A stretch of DNA of 64,000 bases from Cytophagaceae bacterium. Its GTDB lineage: Bacteria; Bacteroidota; Bacteroidia; Cytophagales; Cytophagaceae. Below the pieces are notes generated by a model, which was not told the origin of the DNA, made no database searches, and saw nothing but the letters and a program-made list of their open reading frames with translations. The position numbers and the translations under genes are program-made. Positions within the stretch are counted from its first letter, which is position 1, and the number at the start of each line of letters is the position of its first letter. The stretch lies in assembly GCA_025454925.1 (NCBI GenBank), contig JALONM010000002.1, positions 62,001-126,000 on the forward strand, given 5' to 3'. Positions 11,785 to 21,987 of the stretch are shown in pieces.

Positions 11785-14700
11785 CTAAATTTTTATGCCT
11801 ATTAAGAGCAAATCATCCAGCTGATTTTCTTTTCCTTTCCACTCCAGGTGTTTTTGTTCAAACAGCAGTTGTTGTTCCTGCATCGGTAAAGGATGAATTT
11901 TGTCTACCATTTCCAGCATGCGTGTTCTTCCAAACTTCCTTCCATCGGGTCCTCCCAATTGGTCTTCGTATCCGTCGGAGTACAAATAAATATACGAGTT
12001 GGGCAGCAATGGGTAGGCATGTGTGGTAAACACAAAATCTTTACCATGTTCGCTTCCACCTATCGGAAATTTATCGCCTTTGATGTATTCTGCTTTTTGA
12101 TCTTGAACCAGGATGAGTGGATTTTTGGCTCCGGCAAATTGAATGGACTTAGCTTGCTTGTCGAGCACCACAATGGCCAGATCCATGCCGTCTTTGTTGG
12201 TGCCACTGTCTTGTTTTAATTCTTTTCGAATGCTGCTGTTCAGTTGAGTGAGAATTTCTCCCGGAGTAAGAATTTCACGTTCAAAAACCATTTGTTGCAG
12301 CAAGGTGTAACCCACCATGCTCATAAATCCGCCGGGAACACCATGCCCCGTGCAATCTACCGCCGCAATAAGAAGTTTGCCATCTTTTTCCGCAAACCAA
12401 TAAAAGTCACCACTCACAATATCGCGAGGTTTGAACAATACAAAGGCATCGCTTACTTGTTGCTTCAAACGATCCATGTCGGGCAATACCGCTTCCTGAA
12501 TACGTTTGGCGTAATTAATACTATCGGTGATGGATTTATTTTTCTTCTCAATAATCTCTTTTTGCTTGATTACCTCTTCGGTACGCTCTTTCACTTTACC
12601 TTCCAGGTTGTTGTACAAAGAGGCGTTTTCCAGTGAAATGGCAATTTGGGAGGACAATAGATTAAGCGTATCAATGCGATCCCGGGTAAAGGTATCGGTA
12701 GTTAGGTTGTTTTCCAGGTAAATCAAGCCTACCATATTACCTTGGTTGAGCAACGGAGTACACAATACTGATTTTGATTGCTGGGCTACGAAATACGGGT
12801 CGTTTTTGAAATTGCTGCTTTGTGCATTGGGCAGTACCAAAAACTCTTTTGTTTTAATGACATAATTGATAAAGGCAGCAGGCAGCAGGTGCTTGTCTGG
12901 ATCGTTGGATTCCGTGAACGATTTTCCTGGAAGAATAGAAAGGGCATCGGGAGTTCCGATGGCTTGCACCATCCATTTCTTTTGGTCGAGCATCAGCAGG
13001 GATCCGAATTGTGCGCCGGCATTTTCGAATACTATTTTCATTAATGCCTGCACTAGTTTTTCCAGTTTAATTTCCTGCGAAAGACTTTGTGATGCTTTAA
13101 CAATGCTTTCCAGGTCCATGCTCACCGTATTAGCGGTAACTGTAGAAAGATAGGCTGACGCAGCGCTGCTTCGCAAGGCTCTTGTCAGCAAGCGCTCTCC
13201 GTAGGCTTCTTTCAGTTGGGCAATTTTTGCCAATGCTCCCCAGTCGCCATACCGCTCAATGGATTTGATGATCATGTGCGAAGCCTCTTCCATGCAATCC
13301 CGTTCTAAATAGAATTTCGTCATCAATTCATAGGTAAGAGCCTCATCATTTTTGTATTGATGTTTTTTGGATAGGTTGAGGGCTTCGTTATACCATTGAT
13401 TGGCTTGGTCGGAATTCTTTTTTACCCGGTACCATTCAGCCTTTAGCAAAGCGAATTTTTGTCCGAAATTTTCGGGAGACCATTGCGCGAGTTTTTCTAC
13501 TTTTTTTATTAAGGCTCCAACGCCTGCTGTTTTTTGTTGGGCTAACAATATTAGGGCTTTGAAATAATAAAACAGATTTACATTGGGTTGGGAAATTGAG
13601 CCCTCCAGGTTTTTGCCACAAAGCTGTGCATACTCTTCTGCTTTTTCAAAAGCGCCAAAATAATAGGCTATGGTCATTTTGTTGTAATACGCCATGCACA
13701 GCATTGCCACATCTTTGCCTTCGGTATGGATGGGCATAAATTCCGCCTCGTTGTAATAGGGGCCTGTAAAGATCCACGGATCTTTGGTGGTGGCCATTAG
13801 ATGGTAGGCTGCCTGAGCATATACTCCACCGTGATAAAAAGCTGTTTTGTGGTGTAAGGTAGTTTTTACCGATTCAACGTATTCTTGATTTTCTTCGTTG
13901 AGTTCAAATAGGTTTAACCCTGCAAAATATTTACTGAACAAATAGTTATTGATGCTGTAGGCGGCAAATTCAAAATCACCCGATTCCATGCCCATGGTAT
14001 ACATGCGGTGCAGCGGTTCGATGGCCTCGCGGTAGGGGCGCTTCCAATGAGAAATACTGGAGTAGAAAATTTCTACAGGTCTAACAATTCCCACAGGATC
14101 GTTGGTTTTAGAAGCCAGGGTGAGCGCCACTTCTCCGAATTTAAATCCGTTTTCTACATCGCCCAGGGCACCACATAAAATCATGGCATAACCCGAATAG
14201 GAAAATGCAGAGTGTGTGGTATTGCCGTACTGAATGGAAAGCAGCGTGGAGCGAAACGCAATAATTGGCAGCAGATCTGGTGCTGCATACATGGCGGCAG
14301 ATCCAATCTTGGTCATGATGGAATGTGCCGCTACCATGTTGGCGTTGCTCATGGCAGGTAAGTCGGCCAGCGATTCAATTTTTTTACCTCGAAGTGCCCA
14401 TTTAATGGCAATCAATTCTTTCACTACATGCAGTTTATTGGGCTTTGCAGGCATCGAAACACCCAGCTTCTTCAAGGCTTCCAATCCCACTTGTACCTGC
14501 TCCAATAATTTATTCTGAGCATTGTAGGCATTAATGCGGATTTCATAGGCAAACGCCTCGTCGATGGGGGTTCGGGCCTTCGCACTTATCATGTGAACGA
14601 GCGATTCCATCAGTTCGAAGTTGCCACATAGATATGCAGCCTCTGCGGCGTCGTTCTGAAGCGAAAGCCGCTGGGCATAGTCTGTTTCCCAACTGCTCTC

Positions 14701-17022
14701 TTCGGTATGCCGTATTGCTGTTTCGAAGTATTGAGAAGCAATGGCAAAGGCCGCCGCATTGCGTGCTTTTTTCCCTGCCCACTGATTAAGTTGGATCAAG
14801 GTGCAGTTTTCACTTACCTGCACCGGCGACGCACCTATGTTTAAATGATTGACAATTTCAAAAATAGAAGCGGCATCCTGCGGATGACTTTCTTTCTCCA
14901 GCAAAAGTTTGCCAATTGCCAGGTGGCTTGATTGTTTTGTTTGTGGTGAAAGGCTCTGATAAAAGGTTTGTTGCACACGGTCGTGAATAAACCGGAATTG
15001 GAAGGCCTCCAGGTTTATTTCCGATTCTTCATTATTGCGCATGTGCGCTATGTTAGCTGATGCAATTAGCAAGCCGTTTTCAATGGCGGGTTCCAGGATT
15101 TCTGCTAAGGCTCGGGCGCTTTTCCCACTTATGGATTTTAGCTCAGGCAAGGTAAACGAATTACCAATACAAGAAGCCATGGAGAGTAAGTCGGTCGTCG
15201 ATTGGCCGAGCAAAGCAATCCTGCTCATCATGAGCTCCACTACGTTTTCACTTACCTGTAATTGCTCTATCTTTTCGATATCCCAGGTCCAGCGCGATTC
15301 CGCATGGTCAAAGGTAAACAGATTGGCAGAACTGATAGAGTTGAGGTATTGGTGAACGAAAAAAATATTTCCTTTAGATTTGGAATATACCAGGTTGGTA
15401 AGTCGTTCAATGGATTTATCCTGGCTGTGCAAGGCATCATGCAACAGCTCTTCAATATTTTCTTTGCTCAGATTGCCGAGTTGAATTTTGCTCGGCTTGC
15501 GCTTTCCGGACTTTAGTTTTTGAATAAGGTGAGCAAAAGGATGCGTGACACCTACTTCGTTGTCGCGGTAAGAGCACACCAGCATCAGGTAGGCCAGATC
15601 CTGATCCGAAAGAAAAACATCGATCAATCGGAGCGAAGCCTGATCTACCCATTGTAAGTCGTCGAGGAAGATAACCAGTGGATGTTCCTGATGACAAAAA
15701 GTGGCAATGAATTGTTTAAGGGTATATTCAAATCGATTTTGCGACGCGGCTCCTTCCAATTGCGGCACTGCGGCTTGCGCTCCAATGAGCAGTTCCAGCC
15801 GTGGCAAGAGATCAACCATGAGTTGCCCGTTTCCTCCCAGGTTTTTTAGTAGCTTTGATTTCCAGAATTCTTGTTTTTCTTCACTTTCAGAAAGCAACGA
15901 TTGCAACAATCCGTTGAGCGCACTTACAAAGGCACTGTATGGAACATCCTTTTGAAGCTGATCGAATTTCCCTTGTATGAAAAAACCTCGCTTGTCGGTA
16001 ATGGGCTTATTGATTTCTGCCACGAGCCTGGATTTACCAGTTCCCGAAGGGCCTTCTACGAGTACCATCTCTACGGCACCCTGGCCACTTAACTCAAATA
16101 TTTCCAGCAAACGCTCGTTCTCTTTTTCCCTCCCGTAGGACTTTTCAGGAATTTGAAAAATTCCTGAATGGTCGCGGCTTCCCAAAGGAAAGGATTGAAA
16201 CGTTTTTCCTTGCTGAAAGTAAGACCAACTGGTTTTTAAATCAATGAGTAGTCCTTGCGCCGATTGATAACGATCTTCCGCATTTTTTTTCACCAGGCGT
16301 CCAATAATTTCAGATAGTGAAACCGGAATGCCAGGCTCTTGAGTATGTAACAAAGGTATTTCTTTTGCCAGGTGCGCATACACCATTTGAAGAGAATCTT
16401 CAAGATCAAAAGGTACTTGCCCCAGGCATAGCTCGTACAGCACAATTCCTAAGGAATAAAAATCTGTTCGGTAATCCACAGACCTATTCATCCTTCCGGT
16501 TTGCTCTGGAGAAATATAGGCCAGTGTTCCCTCTAGTTTATTGATGTTAGGAGCGGCTTCGTTTTTGAGAGTCGTGCGTGTTGAAATTCCAAAATCTATG
16601 ATTTTTATTTTGCCATCTGGCTGAACGATGATGTTATTGCCAGATATGTCTTTGTGAATGATGTTCTGTTGATGAATGGCATCGAGCGTTTCGGCCAATT
16701 GAATGGCGATCTGGTAAACTTCCTCCAGGGAGAATGCATGTTTGCGTATGCGCTGGCGTAAGGTGTCCCCTTCAATATACTCCAGCAGCAAAGCCGGTTT
16801 ACTGTCGATGGTAGTTTTTTCTATGAGCCTGCGTATGCCTTGTGCACTGATTTTTTGAAGGATGCTGCATTCGTTCGCAAGCTCCAGTTTTTTCTCTGGT
16901 GAGTTTTCTACATTCTTGATGATTTTATATAATAGCTTTCTCCCTGTAGAGGCATCAGTGGTTACATAAAAATCAGAATGTATACTCTCATGAATTAATT
17001 CGAGTTCAGACAAGGTAATCAT
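11785..17022 (-). CDS. Multidomain Ser/Thr kinase - AAA ATPase - GAF - SpoIIE/PP2C phosphatase
   Basis: About 1745 residues from ATG at 17022 (a longer frame to 17073 adds an unlikely leader). Order: a protein kinase domain (residues 1-270) with HKDISGNN as catalytic loop, DFGIS and an activation-segment SPEQTGRMNR; an STAND/AAA ATPase with Walker A EGPSGTGKSR (about 322-331) and Walker B FLDDLQWVD (about 452-460); a long helical TPR-like region (about 730-1230); a GAF domain (about 1290-1450); a coiled coil with KERTEEVIKQKEIIEKKNK; and a C-terminal SpoIIE-type phosphatase with SGDFYW, DCTGHGVPGG and YSDGYEDQ. Known relatives are large sensor kinases of bacteria and cyanobacteria; combining kinase and phosphatase outputs in one chain suggests switching of a partner such as an anti-anti-sigma protein. 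The catalytic loop is HKD rather than HRD. No membrane segment. Convergent with katG. Confidence 0.9.
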   Translation of the reverse strand: MITLSELELIHESIHSDFYVTTDASTGRKLLYKIIKNVENSPEKKLELANECSILQKISAQGIRRLIEKTTIDSKPALLLEYIEGDTLRQRIRKHAFSLEEVYQIAIQLAETLDAIHQQNIIHKDISGNNIIVQPDGKIKIIDFGISTRTTLKNEAAPNINKLEGTLAYISPEQTGRMNRSVDYRTDFYSLGIVLYELCLGQVPFDLEDSLQMVYAHLAKEIPLLHTQEPGIPVSLSEIIGRLVKKNAEDRYQSAQGLLIDLKTSWSYFQQGKTFQSFPLGSRDHSGIFQIPEKSYGREKENERLLEIFELSGQGAVEMVLVEGPSGTGKSRLVAEINKPITDKRGFFIQGKFDQLQKDVPYSAFVSALNGLLQSLLSESEEKQEFWKSKLLKNLGGNGQLMVDLLPRLELLIGAQAAVPQLEGAASQNRFEYTLKQFIATFCHQEHPLVIFLDDLQWVDQASLRLIDVFLSDQDLAYLMLVCSYRDNEVGVTHPFAHLIQKLKSGKRKPSKIQLGNLSKENIEELLHDALHSQDKSIERLTNLVYSKSKGNIFFVHQYLNSISSANLFTFDHAESRWTWDIEKIEQLQVSENVVELMMSRIALLGQSTTDLLSMASCIGNSFTLPELKSISGKSARALAEILEPAIENGLLIASANIAHMRNNEESEINLEAFQFRFIHDRVQQTFYQSLSPQTKQSSHLAIGKLLLEKESHPQDAASIFEIVNHLNIGASPVQVSENCTLIQLNQWAGKKARNAAAFAIASQYFETAIRHTEESSWETDYAQRLSLQNDAAEAAYLCGNFELMESLVHMISAKARTPIDEAFAYEIRINAYNAQNKLLEQVQVGLEALKKLGVSMPAKPNKLHVVKELIAIKWALRGKKIESLADLPAMSNANMVAAHSIMTKIGSAAMYAAPDLLPIIAFRSTLLSIQYGNTTHSAFSYSGYAMILCGALGDVENGFKFGEVALTLASKTNDPVGIVRPVEIFYSSISHWKRPYREAIEPLHRMYTMGMESGDFEFAAYSINNYLFSKYFAGLNLFELNEENQEYVESVKTTLHHKTAFYHGGVYAQAAYHLMATTKDPWIFTGPYYNEAEFMPIHTEGKDVAMLCMAYYNKMTIAYYFGAFEKAEEYAQLCGKNLEGSISQPNVNLFYYFKALILLAQQKTAGVGALIKKVEKLAQWSPENFGQKFALLKAEWYRVKKNSDQANQWYNEALNLSKKHQYKNDEALTYELMTKFYLERDCMEEASHMIIKSIERYGDWGALAKIAQLKEAYGERLLTRALRSSAASAYLSTVTANTVSMDLESIVKASQSLSQEIKLEKLVQALMKIVFENAGAQFGSLLMLDQKKWMVQAIGTPDALSILPGKSFTESNDPDKHLLPAAFINYVIKTKEFLVLPNAQSSNFKNDPYFVAQQSKSVLCTPLLNQGNMVGLIYLENNLTTDTFTRDRIDTLNLLSSQIAISLENASLYNNLEGKVKERTEEVIKQKEIIEKKNKSITDSINYAKRIQEAVLPDMDRLKQQVSDAFVLFKPRDIVSGDFYWFAEKDGKLLIAAVDCTGHGVPGGFMSMVGYTLLQQMVFEREILTPGEILTQLNSSIRKELKQDSGTNKDGMDLAIVVLDKQAKSIQFAGAKNPLILVQDQKAEYIKGDKFPIGGSEHGKDFVFTTHAYPLLPNSYIYLYSDGYEDQLGGPDGRKFGRTRMLEMVDKIHPLPMQEQQLLFEQKHLEWKGKENQLDDLLLIGIKI

Positions 17023-17354
17023 AGAAAAAATAAATTCAATAATTCGGTAAGTAACGTTCCATTTTACGTTCAAAAAAAAGGTTGGTTGGAATCTCTACCG
17101 GCCTTTTTTGTGCATTCATCTACAAAAATACGAGTGCGTGGGTGTAAAAATAGAATGCACGCCTTCCAATACATCCGGAAGTTCGTACTATTCTGCGCCT
17201 TAATACCCTGGTGCATGTACGTATTTTAACATTAATATACCGATTAAAGCAGTATTTTATCAAAAAATTAACAAGAAATGAATCTTAAGATGCTTTGTCT
17301 GCGTTAAATTTAAACCGGGTTTTATTGTCACCCCCGGATTGAATTGTTTGTAAT
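17023..17354. other. Divergent control region between the large kinase and the small sorting-domain gene
   Basis: 332 AT-rich bases with no open gene. It must hold promoters in both directions. A TAAATTTA sequence about 45 bases before the plus-strand start loosely resembles the Bacteroidota -7 box, but I cannot place a confident promoter. Confidence 0.3.
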
Positions 17355-18033: not shown

Positions 18034-18079
18034 TGGGTTTCAAAGTCATTTGATTAAATCAAATGTACTTCGAAACCCA
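18034..18079 (-). terminator. Long inverted repeat downstream of the DyP operon
   Basis: Arms TGGGTTTC...AAGT...ATTTGAT and ATCAAAT...ACTT...GAAACCCA pair over about 19 bp with three small interruptions and a tiny loop. It lies 32 bases past the DyP stop on the minus strand. The T tract that follows on that strand (AGTTTGTTTT) is broken, so it may stabilise the 3' end as much as terminate. Confidence 0.55.
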
Positions 18080-18110
18080 TGGTGTTGTTGTTTAATTGCG
18101 GTTGAATGCC

Positions 18111-19577
18111 TTATATACTGGCCAGGTATTTTATAGCCTTAATGCCTGGCATAAAAAAGTAGGCTCCTCCTTTGGTGCGCACGAAACGAGGGATATTCAT
18201 AACCCTCCGGCGAACCGGGGTATCGGGTATGGTAAAGTTATTGGTCTGAAAACCTCTGGGATCGTGACCGATCAAGGGATCGGAGTCGTCGTACAAGCCC
18301 AGGAATTTAGGATCGTTGACCCAACTTTGCTGCACCAGTTCAAATTGGCGCGCTATGCTGCTGTTAAAACAAATGAACTGAAGTCCTCTTTTTTGTTCAT
18401 CATTTTTCCCTTGGATGACTTCTTGCGGATTCAGGTCCGGAACTAAAGGGTTTCCATAGGGCCTGCCTCTGCGAATGATGCGATTGCGCTTCGTAACACG
18501 GATAGATTCTTTTACATCGTCTTTAATGAATGTGTCACGTGCATTGCTTCTCCGTAAGTGAGAGCCTATCGGGCATTTCATGCCATCGGGATCGTCTTTG
18601 GAATAATAAAAATTGTCATCATCCGACAAGGCTGGATTGTCGTGGAAAGGACACTTGGTTATCGGAGCGCCACTCGGCCAACGGCCTACCATCTTAGAAG
18701 CCAGGAACACCGCCGGATCTTCTTTGTCGGAATATATTTTTTTACCTTCTTCGTTTACAAAGTCCCAAAAGTTTTTTACATCCTGTTCCAGGGTTCTGAA
18801 GACCATAAAGGTTCCGTTCTTTCCGAAATCTTTTTTGCTTGGATCTAAGGGAGAGATGGGTAAAAGATTTTTCTGGTCGTGTTGTGGAGATACCAAGGGC
18901 GTGTCGGGATATTGCTCGTACTCGTTCAGGTAGCCGAGAATAAATTCTCCCGTTTTACAGGTATTGCCTTCGCTGCTTTGCTTTCCAATCCCTTCGATCA
19001 TAGGTTGTGAAATCCCATCTCTAAATCCGAAATGTTCTTTACGGCCAGGCAAGGTTTTGCCTTCCAATTTTGCTACTTCCCTCAATCCATGCGTGTCGTA
19101 CGATGCCCGGATTTGTTGATAGCGCTGATCCAGCGCGGCATCATCGGCGGCAAATACCATCAGGCAAAGATGTATTGCATTTTCACTGGCCTGAGTATCC
19201 TTGCCACTTTGTTCCGGATATCCATAGTCCCAATTGGCGGGTGCACTCTGGTCTATATCGCCGAGCATGCGCTGGCGGTAATCTTTGGCCATGCCTTCAC
19301 GGAATTCGCGCACAAATGTATTCTGAGCTTCCTCTGGTAAGCCCAATATTTTTAAACCATAGTTGGAGAATGCCAAATTCAGGCATCCTTCGTCCGGTTT
19401 TTCCAACCCATGGGTAAGCTGGTCGGCCACTTGCACAAGCCAGCTCTTACAAGCATTTACATTCGTAATAGAAAGCATAAGGTAGTAGGCACTCGGCATA
19501 TATCCATAGCCTCGTACTACAATACCTTGGATGTCGTTCATTTCAATCGTAGGCGGTATATGATGTTTTATCTGCAT
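18111..19577 (-). CDS. DyP-type haem peroxidase
   Basis: 488 residues. The family signature GFRDGISQP is at 184-192 with catalytic Asp187, and the proximal haem-ligand histidine is His340 in CPIGSHLRRSNARD, a strongly conserved DyP segment. The length and the long insert between the two halves fit the larger (fungal-like, C/D or V) DyP classes rather than the short A/B enzymes. There is no Tat or Sec signal, so it should be cytoplasmic. It is the third gene of a minus-strand operon, 19 bases after the duplicated-domain protein. DyP enzymes oxidise dyes, lignin-like phenols and porphyrins with peroxide; the natural substrate here is unknown. Confidence 0.92.
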   Translation of the reverse strand: MQIKHHIPPTIEMNDIQGIVVRGYGYMPSAYYLMLSITNVNACKSWLVQVADQLTHGLEKPDEGCLNLAFSNYGLKILGLPEEAQNTFVREFREGMAKDYRQRMLGDIDQSAPANWDYGYPEQSGKDTQASENAIHLCLMVFAADDAALDQRYQQIRASYDTHGLREVAKLEGKTLPGRKEHFGFRDGISQPMIEGIGKQSSEGNTCKTGEFILGYLNEYEQYPDTPLVSPQHDQKNLLPISPLDPSKKDFGKNGTFMVFRTLEQDVKNFWDFVNEEGKKIYSDKEDPAVFLASKMVGRWPSGAPITKCPFHDNPALSDDDNFYYSKDDPDGMKCPIGSHLRRSNARDTFIKDDVKESIRVTKRNRIIRRGRPYGNPLVPDLNPQEVIQGKNDEQKRGLQFICFNSSIARQFELVQQSWVNDPKFLGLYDDSDPLIGHDPRGFQTNNFTIPDTPVRRRVMNIPRFVRTKGGAYFFMPGIKAIKYLASI

Positions 19578-19596
19578 AAATCGTAAAGCTTAGGGA

Positions 19597-20889
19597 TTAG
19601 AAATTTTTTAACCACTCGGTGAGTTCTTTTTCGTTTAGTTTTTTACTAAGGCCATCCCGGATGCGTTTGTTGTTCAACATATTTTTTACCGTCATATCGG
19701 GATAAGCAGTATACCAAACCTGTGTGGGGTATTGATTTTGACGCACGGTGCTTTTAAACAACATTTCGTCGTGGGCTCCTTCTTTAATCATCCATTTCAC
19801 CTGAGGATATCCGATCATATTGGAAAATGTGAGGTTCATGGCATTGGCGGCATGGTCGATAAATTCACTCAGGTATTTTTCCCAGGCGCCATCGTAATTG
19901 CTGAGGAACATCACCGATTGATTGTTATTGAAAATTACCCAACGGGCAAAATGTACGGTTTCAATACCCGATAGTTTTCCTTTGGTAGATCGGTATGTTC
20001 CGTTAAGTTTGAATAACTTGATGGCAAGTTTCAGCGTAGTGCGTTTGAACCAGTACGGTGTTTTAATGGTTCCGTATACCGTAAGTTGATTTTGGGGTTG
20101 AAGGTTTTCAATCTTCATGAGTTCGTCAACGTTGTGCGAACCGTCGGTGAATCCGAGTTTGCGGTAGTATGCTCTTTTGGCATCGTCTCTCTTTTCGAAA
20201 TACCTACCTATAAGAACCCAACAAATAAGGAAGGGAAGAATGGGAAGGAGCAATACCAGCAAGCCTGCCAGTATCAATACTAATTTCCCCCAATAACGTA
20301 TCCACCAACTTCTCGGTGGAATTTCTTTGGGCTGCAAAGCCCAGCGATACTCTGAATTTTCTACGTAGGAAAGAATTGCCTGGTATACTTCTTTGGGACT
20401 CGATTTTCTGAAATCCTTGGAGTCGATGAATGTTTCGAGGGCATACCGGAGCTGATTTTCCATACGCAGTTCTTTTACGGTGTAAAAGCGCATCGCTCCC
20501 CAGAACAAGCGGTTCTCCACCTGGTAAGAGAGCAGGTATTTAATTTTGTCGGCGGTGCTTGCCGAGGCTCCGGGATATCCATCACAATATTGATATATGA
20601 GATCGAAGCCTTTTTCGAACAGGCGCATGAGATCTTGCAAGTGACCATTTACCTCTCCATCGTAGTTGCTGGTGAAAGCCAGCGTAGGAGGCTCATAGGC
20701 GCCGGATTCGGCCCTAAGCTGGTCGATGATGAACCAACGACAATAATGAATGGTGTCTAACTTTGAAAAGGGAACATGCGGGTTGTTGCCAGGATCTTTT
20801 CCGAGTTCTTCCAGAAAAGTCCGTAGTTGCGATAAGGCATTACCATCTTTGACAGGAACAATGATGGTGAGTCCGGATTGAAAAATCAT
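19597..20889 (-). CDS. Membrane protein with an internally duplicated domain, unknown function
   Basis: 430 residues from ATG at 20889, which lies 7 bases after the stop of the catalase-like gene (the frame extends upstream to 20952, but that would overlap that gene). Two halves share a motif pair: IHYCRW (46-51) with SNYDG (73-77) and GYPG (103-106) in the first, VHFARW (311-316) with SNYDG (329-333) and GYP (359-361) in the second. A strong hydrophobic segment (about 202-227) separates them. The strand-helix pattern suggests ferredoxin-like halves, as in dimeric alpha/beta-barrel haem proteins, but this is inference. It is sandwiched between a catalase-like and a DyP gene, so a role in peroxide or haem chemistry, perhaps as a membrane partner, is plausible. 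No name known to me. Confidence 0.8.
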   Translation of the reverse strand: MIFQSGLTIIVPVKDGNALSQLRTFLEELGKDPGNNPHVPFSKLDTIHYCRWFIIDQLRAESGAYEPPTLAFTSNYDGEVNGHLQDLMRLFEKGFDLIYQYCDGYPGASASTADKIKYLLSYQVENRLFWGAMRFYTVKELRMENQLRYALETFIDSKDFRKSSPKEVYQAILSYVENSEYRWALQPKEIPPRSWWIRYWGKLVLILAGLLVLLLPILPFLICWVLIGRYFEKRDDAKRAYYRKLGFTDGSHNVDELMKIENLQPQNQLTVYGTIKTPYWFKRTTLKLAIKLFKLNGTYRSTKGKLSGIETVHFARWVIFNNNQSVMFLSNYDGAWEKYLSEFIDHAANAMNLTFSNMIGYPQVKWMIKEGAHDEMLFKSTVRQNQYPTQVWYTAYPDMTVKNMLNNKRIRDGLSKKLNEKELTEWLKNF

Positions 20890-20896
20890 AGTTGTG

Positions 20897-21868
20897 TTAG
20901 CAATTAAAATTGGTAGGTTCAGGTACAGCTTGGTCATGATGGCGGAATGCACTCATGATTTCATATATTTTTTTTCTGGCGATACCAATATCTCCAGCCG
21001 GCCGGTGGTCATGCAAGGTATGCCAGGGTGTAAAGGAAAGGTTTTCCCCCAATGTTCTGCGTGCAGGGGTGTCGAATTCCTGAGAAAGCAATGTGAGGGT
21101 AGCAATTACTACCAGCGGGCCTTTCCATTCTATGGCAGCATTATGAATGGGATCGTTGGCTTCGCGTTTTTGCAAACACAGTTCAAACTGCACTTCCGAC
21201 TTGCGGAGGTTTTCTTGTAAACGCTCTTTTAAAAAATTATCCTTATCCTTCGCTTCGCAGGAAGGAGCCAGGCTCTTGGGTCTGAGCACGTACTTCACCA
21301 CCTGTTCTTCATAATGGTAAGGCACCTGGCTAAAATACGTTTCGTTCAAAAGGTTTTCGCAATGCTTCGCTGATTGCAAGGCCCTCCATACCGTGCGAAG
21401 GTGGGTAAGTGCGAAGAAAATTTTCTTCAGTAGGCCACCAGAGGTTGCTAAAATTCCTTTAACGGTTCCCTTAAAGGTGCCAGGAGGAAAGCTGGGATAG
21501 TTGGCCAATAGCAAGTCTTGAGTTACTGCATTTTTTTTGCCTTCCAATACTTTGATGCCGGGTACACCTATGATTTTGATGGCAAAACCACGCAGGTCTT
21601 TTTTTCGATCTGAAGCTACTGTGCGACTGCCGTTGGAAAGCCTTACCAGCGCCTCATAACGTTTGCCGGGTGTAAATAGTATGCTTTCCAGTTCCGAAGG
21701 GAGATCGGTCCGCACGTCTAAATATGCCTGAAGCAACCCATGCATTTTAGGGTGAAAGGCACGCAAGTATTTTCCGTCGGGATAGCGCTCCCTTAATTGC
21801 TGCTTAAGTTCCAGTAGTAAAGAATCCATTTCCTCCTGCGGAATGGATGCATCGGTAGCAAGGTTCAT
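20897..21868 (-). CDS. Catalase-like haem protein (catalase superfamily, short form)
   Basis: 323 residues, much shorter than a true catalase (about 480). The N-terminal half has the catalase signature order: RAFHPKMHGLL (His39 aligns with the distal haem histidine in RVVHAKG), then RLSNGSRT and KDLRGFAIKI, matching the RFST...RDVRGFAxKF block. The C-terminal part has FTPWHTLHDHRPAG followed by ARKKIYE, as in short catalase-like proteins of the y4iL type. I could not place the proximal tyrosine motif, so enzymatic activity is uncertain; relatives include peroxidases and allene-oxide-synthase-like enzymes. First gene of the operon with the duplicated-domain protein and DyP peroxidase. Confidence 0.85.
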   Translation of the reverse strand: MNLATDASIPQEEMDSLLLELKQQLRERYPDGKYLRAFHPKMHGLLQAYLDVRTDLPSELESILFTPGKRYEALVRLSNGSRTVASDRKKDLRGFAIKIIGVPGIKVLEGKKNAVTQDLLLANYPSFPPGTFKGTVKGILATSGGLLKKIFFALTHLRTVWRALQSAKHCENLLNETYFSQVPYHYEEQVVKYVLRPKSLAPSCEAKDKDNFLKERLQENLRKSEVQFELCLQKREANDPIHNAAIEWKGPLVVIATLTLLSQEFDTPARRTLGENLSFTPWHTLHDHRPAGDIGIARKKIYEIMSAFRHHDQAVPEPTNFNC

Positions 21869-21900
21869 AAAAAATAAGTCTATCAGTAAGCGTTGTAAAG

Positions 21901-21934
21901 GGATTGTTAAGAACGTAAAAAAATTAACAAATCC
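21901..21934. promoter_or_regulatory. Inverted repeat upstream of the catalase-like operon, candidate operator
   Basis: GGATTGTTAA and TTAACAAATCC pair with a single bulged base across a 13-base A-rich spacer. It lies 33 bases before the start of the catalase-like gene, where a regulator would overlap the promoter. No known consensus recognised. Confidence 0.4.
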
Positions 21935-21987
21935 ACTTCCGGAAAAGTCCGTCTACAATTTTAAAAAAGTCCATTTTCTTTAACGTA

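Follow-up and report, generated by a model that had tools for sequence, protein, structure and literature searches.

A DyP-type peroxidase and a barrel protein of no named family, probably anchored in the membrane, almost certainly form one functional unit that recurs across many bacterial phyla, and the third haem enzyme that often joins them is very probably interchangeable. These conclusions come from following up three genes in a 64,000-nucleotide stretch of the genome of a Cytophagaceae bacterium (GenBank assembly GCA_025454925.1, contig JALONM010000002.1, positions 62,001 to 126,000; hereafter the window). The three genes encode a catalase-related protein, a protein with two repeats (the middle protein) and a DyP. 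We tentatively propose that they make up a membrane-anchored haem cascade that would produce an oxygenated lipophilic, oxylipin-like compound under signalling control.

The middle protein and its DyP partner

In a genome collection we found 197 relatives of the middle protein and read 80 of their loci, which were picked by similarity to the middle protein and not by their neighbours. The loci span eight or more phyla, among them Bacteroidota, Myxococcota, Proteobacteria, Acidobacteria, Gemmatimonadetes, Planctomycetes, Chloroflexi and Actinobacteria. A DyP gene lay 3′ of the middle gene on the same strand, or was fused to it, in 75 of the 76 assessable loci, including one fusion in a single open reading frame (ORF) in locus L064; in the remaining four of the 80, the contig stops at the middle gene. 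A preliminary description of the window had suspected that such proteins occur near DyP and catalase-like genes, and had named in advance the lack of any such link as the result that would speak against it. The association with DyP was instead nearly constant. The sole assessable locus without an adjoining DyP gene, that of Dyadobacter frigoris (L089), did not hold even a frameshifted remnant, and offers a lead for decay or independent function of the middle gene. In another locus (L073), a second DyP gene lies on the opposite strand, ~4 kb from the middle-DyP pair.

Presence and absence in close relatives gave the same picture. Of 59 related genomes, 10 had the middle gene, and a close DyP was present in these 10 and in no others; three of the 10 carried two copies of both genes, and one further genome had a distant DyP only. 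Across 148 genomes sampled phylum-wide, either gene was found only in the window's own genome, and co-occurrence in that set was uninformative.

The middle protein had been reported as unnamed and duplicated, and both observations held. It has no convincing family match in Pfam, NCBIfam or PHROGs, and no solved structure matches it by sequence. Comparison of profiles for its N- and C-terminal halves revealed that they are homologous (probability 99.7, E 3.7e-26). The motif sets of the two repeats are conserved in 70 homologues, with H48, D77, C102, H313, S330 and N331 among the invariant residues. An AlphaFold model made with these homologues (pLDDT 92.1, pTM 0.90) has two beta-alpha-beta-beta repeats around a long helix, giving a tandem ferredoxin-like alpha+beta barrel. 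Judged by this predicted structure, the protein is a member of the ferredoxin-like alpha+beta barrel (ABM/Cld/DyP) superfamily. By profile comparison, the middle protein has no detectable homology to DyP.

A ferredoxin-like or chlorite-dismutase fold had been suggested for the middle protein. The first part was correct, but the closest structures were of the polyketide ABM/SchA type and not chlorite dismutases. WhiE-ORFI (9LMN) ranked first (Z 15.1 over 226 residues, 4.0 Å), next came Abx(+)O at Z 11.4 and a pair of putative monooxygenases at about 10, and HmoB, a haem protein, scored 5.0; chlorite dismutase was not among the 50 best matches, although absence there is no proof. WhiE-ORFI, Abx(+)O (9LTX) and HmoB (4JOU) share the two-repeat barrel with the middle protein, but identity to the first two is only 7-9%. 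The middle protein also differs from ABM/SchA-type proteins in its long hydrophobic helical insert, its HxxRW and SNYDGxW motifs, its gene context and its lack of a family match.

The hydrophobic insert between the repeats is present in all 70 homologues. It is mostly 30-39 residues long, often with a central proline, and in 13 of the 70 it spans 45-58 residues, enough for two membrane passes. Should the two repeats make up a single barrel, which is what the alignments suggest, they must share one side of the membrane, and we therefore favour anchoring by a membrane hairpin or a monotopic arrangement.

Each repeat has an invariant histidine, His48 in the first and His313 in the second, where its second strand begins (strands 47-55 and 312-320). 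In Cld/DyP/IsdG barrels the haem-ligand His sits on a helix, while in siroheme decarboxylase the ligand His is on a beta strand (PMC4835899). The invariant histidines of the middle protein are thus not helix-borne, and in the predicted model their position is compatible with a siroheme-decarboxylase-like placement. Since that enzyme uses a strand His, the middle protein might carry haem or sirohaem. A 780-amino-acid (aa) protein encoded on a Rhizobium plasmid (L112:5386-7728) carries the second repeat of the middle protein with no detectable DyP or P450 domain, and a neighbouring gene has a weak cytochrome P460 match.

By sequence, the third protein of the window is a DyP-type peroxidase nearest to the class V/D enzymes. 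It passes the curated cut-offs for Pfam DyP_N (35.0 bits; cut-off 27.5) and TIGR01413 (101.7; 100.5) and is marginal for Dyp_perox_C (19.9 bits; cut-off 20). The GxxDG motif with its distal D187, the proximal H340 and the distal R369/R370 are conserved in 27 homologues, and the arginine cluster is intact. Its best matches in the Protein Data Bank (PDB) were 8re3 and the ancestral D-type 7anv. These class V (C/D) DyPs have the same domains, GxxDG motif, proximal His and Arg cluster; the window's DyP differs from them in its constant pairing or fusion with the middle barrel protein and in having no signal peptide apparent by eye. Assignment as an EfeB deferrochelatase was rejected (TIGR01412 16.9 bits against an equivalog cut-off of 428). 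The protein shares the DyP superfamily with the EfeB/deferrochelatase iron-uptake and encapsulin-cargo DyPs, but no EfeUO or encapsulin cluster was noticed beside it.

An exchangeable third haem enzyme

A catalase-related gene accompanied the middle gene in 23 of the 80 loci, a P450 gene in 22 and both in none (hypergeometric P=1.3e-4, ignoring descent). Most of the P450 genes adjoin the middle-DyP pair on the same strand. In a tree of the middle protein, well-supported branches force at least four swaps between the two enzymes. P450s are also fused to the core: DyP and P450 form a single protein in two Acidobacteria loci (L056, L106), and P450-middle-DyP triple fusions of 1400-1600 aa are encoded on alphaproteobacterial plasmids in Sulfitobacter, Pararhizobium and Novosphingobium, while Skermanella has the same three components as a three-gene operon. 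Because the two enzymes are mutually exclusive, are swapped on the tree and include P450s fused to the core, the window's catalase-related gene appears to fill a slot held elsewhere by a P450. The catalase-like neighbour of the preliminary description is therefore recurrent but not fixed, as many phyla have a P450 instead. A general loss of O2 activation by the partner P450s, hinted at by L056 and L113, was dropped as an idea after 26 P450s were aligned.

Both outer proteins of the operon had been called relatives of haem peroxidases or catalases, and profiles, structures and conserved haem residues bear this out. The first gives only a weak score for Pfam Catalase (15.7 bits, where the cut-off is 25) and has the catalase fold without the C-terminal part of full-length catalase. 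Using a profile of its relatives, the best PDB match was M. avium MAP-2744c (3E4W, E 8.9e-15), with true catalases at 4e-6 and coral allene oxide synthase (cAOS) at 0.005. When we compared its AlphaFold model (pLDDT 82) with known structures, 3E4Y/3E4W and cAOS were at the top (Z 24.0-24.4; 3E4Y 24.4, 1U5U 24.1) and catalases followed at 23.2 and lower, ~1-2 Z units behind. The sequence profile separates the protein from true catalases more clearly than the structural Z does.

Six residues (R36, H39, R76, R298, Y302 and R309) are invariant or at least 90% conserved in relatives. They include a distal His39 and a proximal Arg298-x3-Tyr302 followed by Arg309. With His39 aligned by HMMER and the other haem-contact residues assigned by motif spacing to a published residue list for cAOS and catalase (PMC5617202), the haem contacts seem intact. 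By fold and haem-contact residues, the protein is a member of the small catalase-related haemoprotein superfamily. It resembles MAP-2744c (3E4W/3E4Y) and coral AOS/hydroperoxide lyase (1U5U, 3DY5) in fold (Z 24), size, the haem-contact Arg/His and the proximal Arg-x3-Tyr...Arg pattern. Unlike coral AOS, it is not fused to a lipoxygenase. No signal peptide was obvious by eye.

Layout of the operon and its neighbours

Positions of the three genes, parts of the middle protein and adjoining elements in the window
Feature	Position	Strand	Remarks
Catalase-related gene	20897-21868	minus	323 aa ORF
Middle gene	19597-20889	minus	430 aa, counted from ATG
DyP peroxidase gene	18111-19577	minus	488 aa ORF
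First repeat of middle protein	20497-20889	minus	Residues 1-131; His48, Asp77, Cys102
Long helix of middle protein	20158-20313	minus	Residues 193-244; hydrophobic membrane segment, central Pro
Second repeat of middle protein	19708-20094	minus	Residues 266-394; His313, SNYDGxW, GYP
Long hairpin 3′ of DyP gene	18034-18079	minus	T-rich tail; likely terminator
Imperfect dyad 5′ of first gene	about 21900-21935	minus	Weak; may be an operator or a hairpin in the 5′ leader
Ser/Thr kinase-AAA_16-GAF-SpoIIE phosphatase protein	11788-17073	minus	1762 aa; domain scan

The ORF coordinates agree with the tight packing described earlier, with gaps of 7 nt between the catalase-related and middle genes and 19 nt between the middle and DyP genes. 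An in-frame GTG further upstream of the middle gene, at 20952, would run into the first gene. Because promoter-like and terminator-like consensus matches at the operon showed no excess over shuffled sequence, we infer co-transcription from gene packing; scans for sigma-70-like and TAnnTTTG promoters likewise yielded nothing above chance. The reported hairpin after the last gene is strong (-30.1 kcal/mol, z -7.0, matched by 0 of 200 shuffles) and has a single copy in the genome, which rules it out as a repeat or mobile element. The inverted repeat reported upstream of the first gene can be seen but is weak (z -1.4), as 20 of 200 shuffles fold equally well. Upstream of the operon, a divergent gene was identified by eye as TonB-dependent-receptor-like.

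Several kinds of accessory gene recur near the middle gene. A patatin lipase gene lies 9-10 nt upstream of it, or overlaps it, in six loci. The catalase-related proteins of one clade (518-536 aa) have a C-terminal extension resembling SRPBCC (lipid transport/cyclase) domains. Three of the five long P450 forms scanned are fusions with glutathione S-transferase (GST) (L059, L077, L104), and the long P450s of L064 and L070 have N-terminal parts without a family. SnoaL-like genes recur in sub-clades, some of them near the catalase-related gene. In P450-type loci, an ABA4-like membrane gene, with a Pfam match confirmed for L059 only, directly follows the DyP gene (L058, L059, L069) or the P450 gene (L100); ABA4 is a protein of the plant xanthophyll pathway.

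The kinase protein of the window is encoded 1 kb downstream of the operon on the same strand and is the only such protein in the genome at E<=1e-100. Members of this kinase-AAA-GAF family occur within 10 kb of the middle gene in 24 of the 80 loci. Their outputs vary, with a SpoIIE phosphatase in the window, a guanylate cyclase in L068 and a histidine kinase with a LuxR regulator in L016, which suggests a modular sensor family. The window's kinase protein probably regulates or responds to the operon. Ahead of the plasmid-borne triple fusions lies a cyclase-TPR or TPR gene. In four Chitinophagales-type loci (L043, L067, L094, L098), a TIR-SIR2 gene and then an nSTAND1 gene lie near the catalase-related gene, a possible link to conflict or immunity.

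A proposed function and its alternatives

The three genes had been read as a membrane-associated system for processing haem or peroxide. The wider context, with patatin, GST, SRPBCC domains, kinases and cyclases, points to biosynthesis of, or signalling with, a lipophilic compound more than to plain haem or peroxide handling. Oxidation of a lipophilic substrate by the operon is, in our judgement, rather likely, and the lipase, GST and lipid-binding domains fit this proposal. An oxylipin-type product in particular is a more tentative suggestion, drawn by analogy with known systems. Fatty-acid hydroperoxides are rearranged by P450s in plants and fungi and by the catalase-related cAOS in corals (PMC5617202). 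Fungi have dioxygenase (DOX)-P450 fusions, and Nostoc pairs a 10S-DOX with a catalase-related lyase (PMC13049297). As in the present operons, a haem oxygenase is coupled, and often fused, to a P450 or a catalase-related enzyme; the first enzyme here differs, being DyP with the barrel instead of a COX/peroxidase-family dioxygenase. Class V DyPs cleave alkenes and also oxidise beta-carotene, the latter even when no peroxide is added (PMC8197335). Because the exchange of catalase-related enzymes and P450s is known from fatty-acid hydroperoxides, and given class V DyP chemistry, we propose DyP and the barrel as the oxygenating step and the third enzyme as the rearranging one.

In this cascade, whose substrate class and order of reactions we infer, the tandem barrel of the middle protein would sit on the inner side of the membrane, anchored by its hydrophobic hairpin or single helix, and would present or channel a lipophilic substrate to the cytosolic DyP. 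DyP would oxygenate this substrate with peroxide or, working as an oxidase, with O2. The catalase-related protein, or elsewhere the P450, would then rearrange the resulting hydroperoxide to an epoxide, aldehyde, ketol or similar product. Where present, patatin, SRPBCC or SnoaL domains and GST could supply acyl substrate or handle reactive products, and the adjoining kinase-AAA-GAF or cyclase proteins may tie the pathway to signalling, in whichever direction.

Several observations weigh against this cascade. Neither a catalase-related gene nor a P450 was nearby in 35 of the 80 loci, some of which are short contigs. The acid-alcohol pair of O2-activating P450s is kept in 16 of 26 aligned sequences and lost in 10, so that peroxide-driven chemistry is not uniform. 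In the catalase-related protein, the position of the cAOS distal Thr66 is Phe38 and is variable in relatives, and no conserved Asn corresponds to the distal Asn137 in the aligned stretch, where the alignment is loose; because the distal Thr is absent, we do not call the protein an allene oxide synthase. The SRPBCC match (scanned in L102) falls just below the Pfam cut-off (25.9 against 27.4 bits). In the scan of recurring neighbours, neither a lipoxygenase nor a classical fatty-acid dioxygenase was identified. The accessory genes occur patchily and might instead serve a carotenoid, terpenoid or polyketide. The substrate itself may be an isoprenoid or a polyketide.

The last point leads to an alternative that we regard as unlikely, though worth weighing: the operon could tailor a carotenoid, terpenoid or aromatic polyketide pigment, with the barrel as an ABM-type cyclase or chaperone and DyP and the P450 or catalase-related protein as oxidases. 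The nearest folds of the middle protein, the polyketide ABM proteins WhiE-ORFI and Abx(+)O, would suit this role, as would the ABA4-like gene in four loci, the SnoaL-like genes near some catalase-related genes and the activity of class V DyPs on beta-carotene (PMC8197335). However, no polyketide synthase, carotenoid or terpene cyclase gene turned up in the scan of recurring neighbour families, in which not every neighbour was annotated; acyl lipids are a better match for patatin, SRPBCC and GST, and the characterised enzymes nearest the catalase-related protein use fatty acyl hydroperoxides.

Plain defence against oxidative stress, in which the operon would scavenge H2O2 or organic peroxides and the middle protein would serve as membrane anchor, is more doubtful still. 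Peroxidase action is possible for both DyP and the catalase-related protein, and GAF-containing sensor proteins are nearby. Yet coral cAOS, whose fold is that of the catalase-related protein, is no H2O2 scavenger (PMC5617202), and a P450 is an unlikely stand-in for one. No stand-alone close DyP was found in the relatives, the DyP partner is kept in all assessable loci but one, and patatin and GST would be left unexplained.

We consider it very improbable that the operon belongs to an anti-phage or inter-bacterial conflict system in which the haem enzymes make a toxic oxidised lipid. Patatin and sensor ATPases are common conflict effectors and sensors, the middle gene is patchy between near relatives, and the TIR-SIR2 and nSTAND genes stand beside the catalase-related gene in four loci; these conflict genes are, however, confined to one small clade. 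None of the three proteins had a PADLOC match, that of the kinase reflects generic Ser/Thr kinase similarity, and the middle protein is in no phage record. Secreted lignocellulose oxidation deserves scarcely any credence: DyPs are often discussed as ligninolytic (PMC8197335), but neither DyP nor the catalase-related protein has an apparent signal peptide, the membrane-anchored barrel is a constant partner, and the operon is spread over many unrelated phyla.

Returning to the lipophilic cascade, its most far-reaching form would be oxylipin-type signalling shared across phyla, with DyP as a lipid dioxygenase, the barrel binding a tetrapyrrole through its strand His, a P450 or catalase-related protein as finisher and a kinase or cyclase as sensor. 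We regard this extended version as improbable. A search of the open-access literature turned up no description of this gene set, and no paper that links DyP to catalase-related proteins, P450s, patatin or oxylipins in this way. The constant DyP partner and the three-way gene arrangement appear to be new, while the component parts are of known kinds.

The physiological substrates of most bacterial DyPs are unknown, and a constant partner together with an interchangeable third enzyme makes the question testable, as the three genes of the operon should share one metabolite phenotype. The association also provides a lead to the function of a protein family that has no match in Pfam, NCBIfam or PHROGs. 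Should the product prove to be an oxygenated lipid, the operon would be a bacterial counterpart of the eicosanoid and jasmonate pathways, with other haem enzymes and its own sensors.

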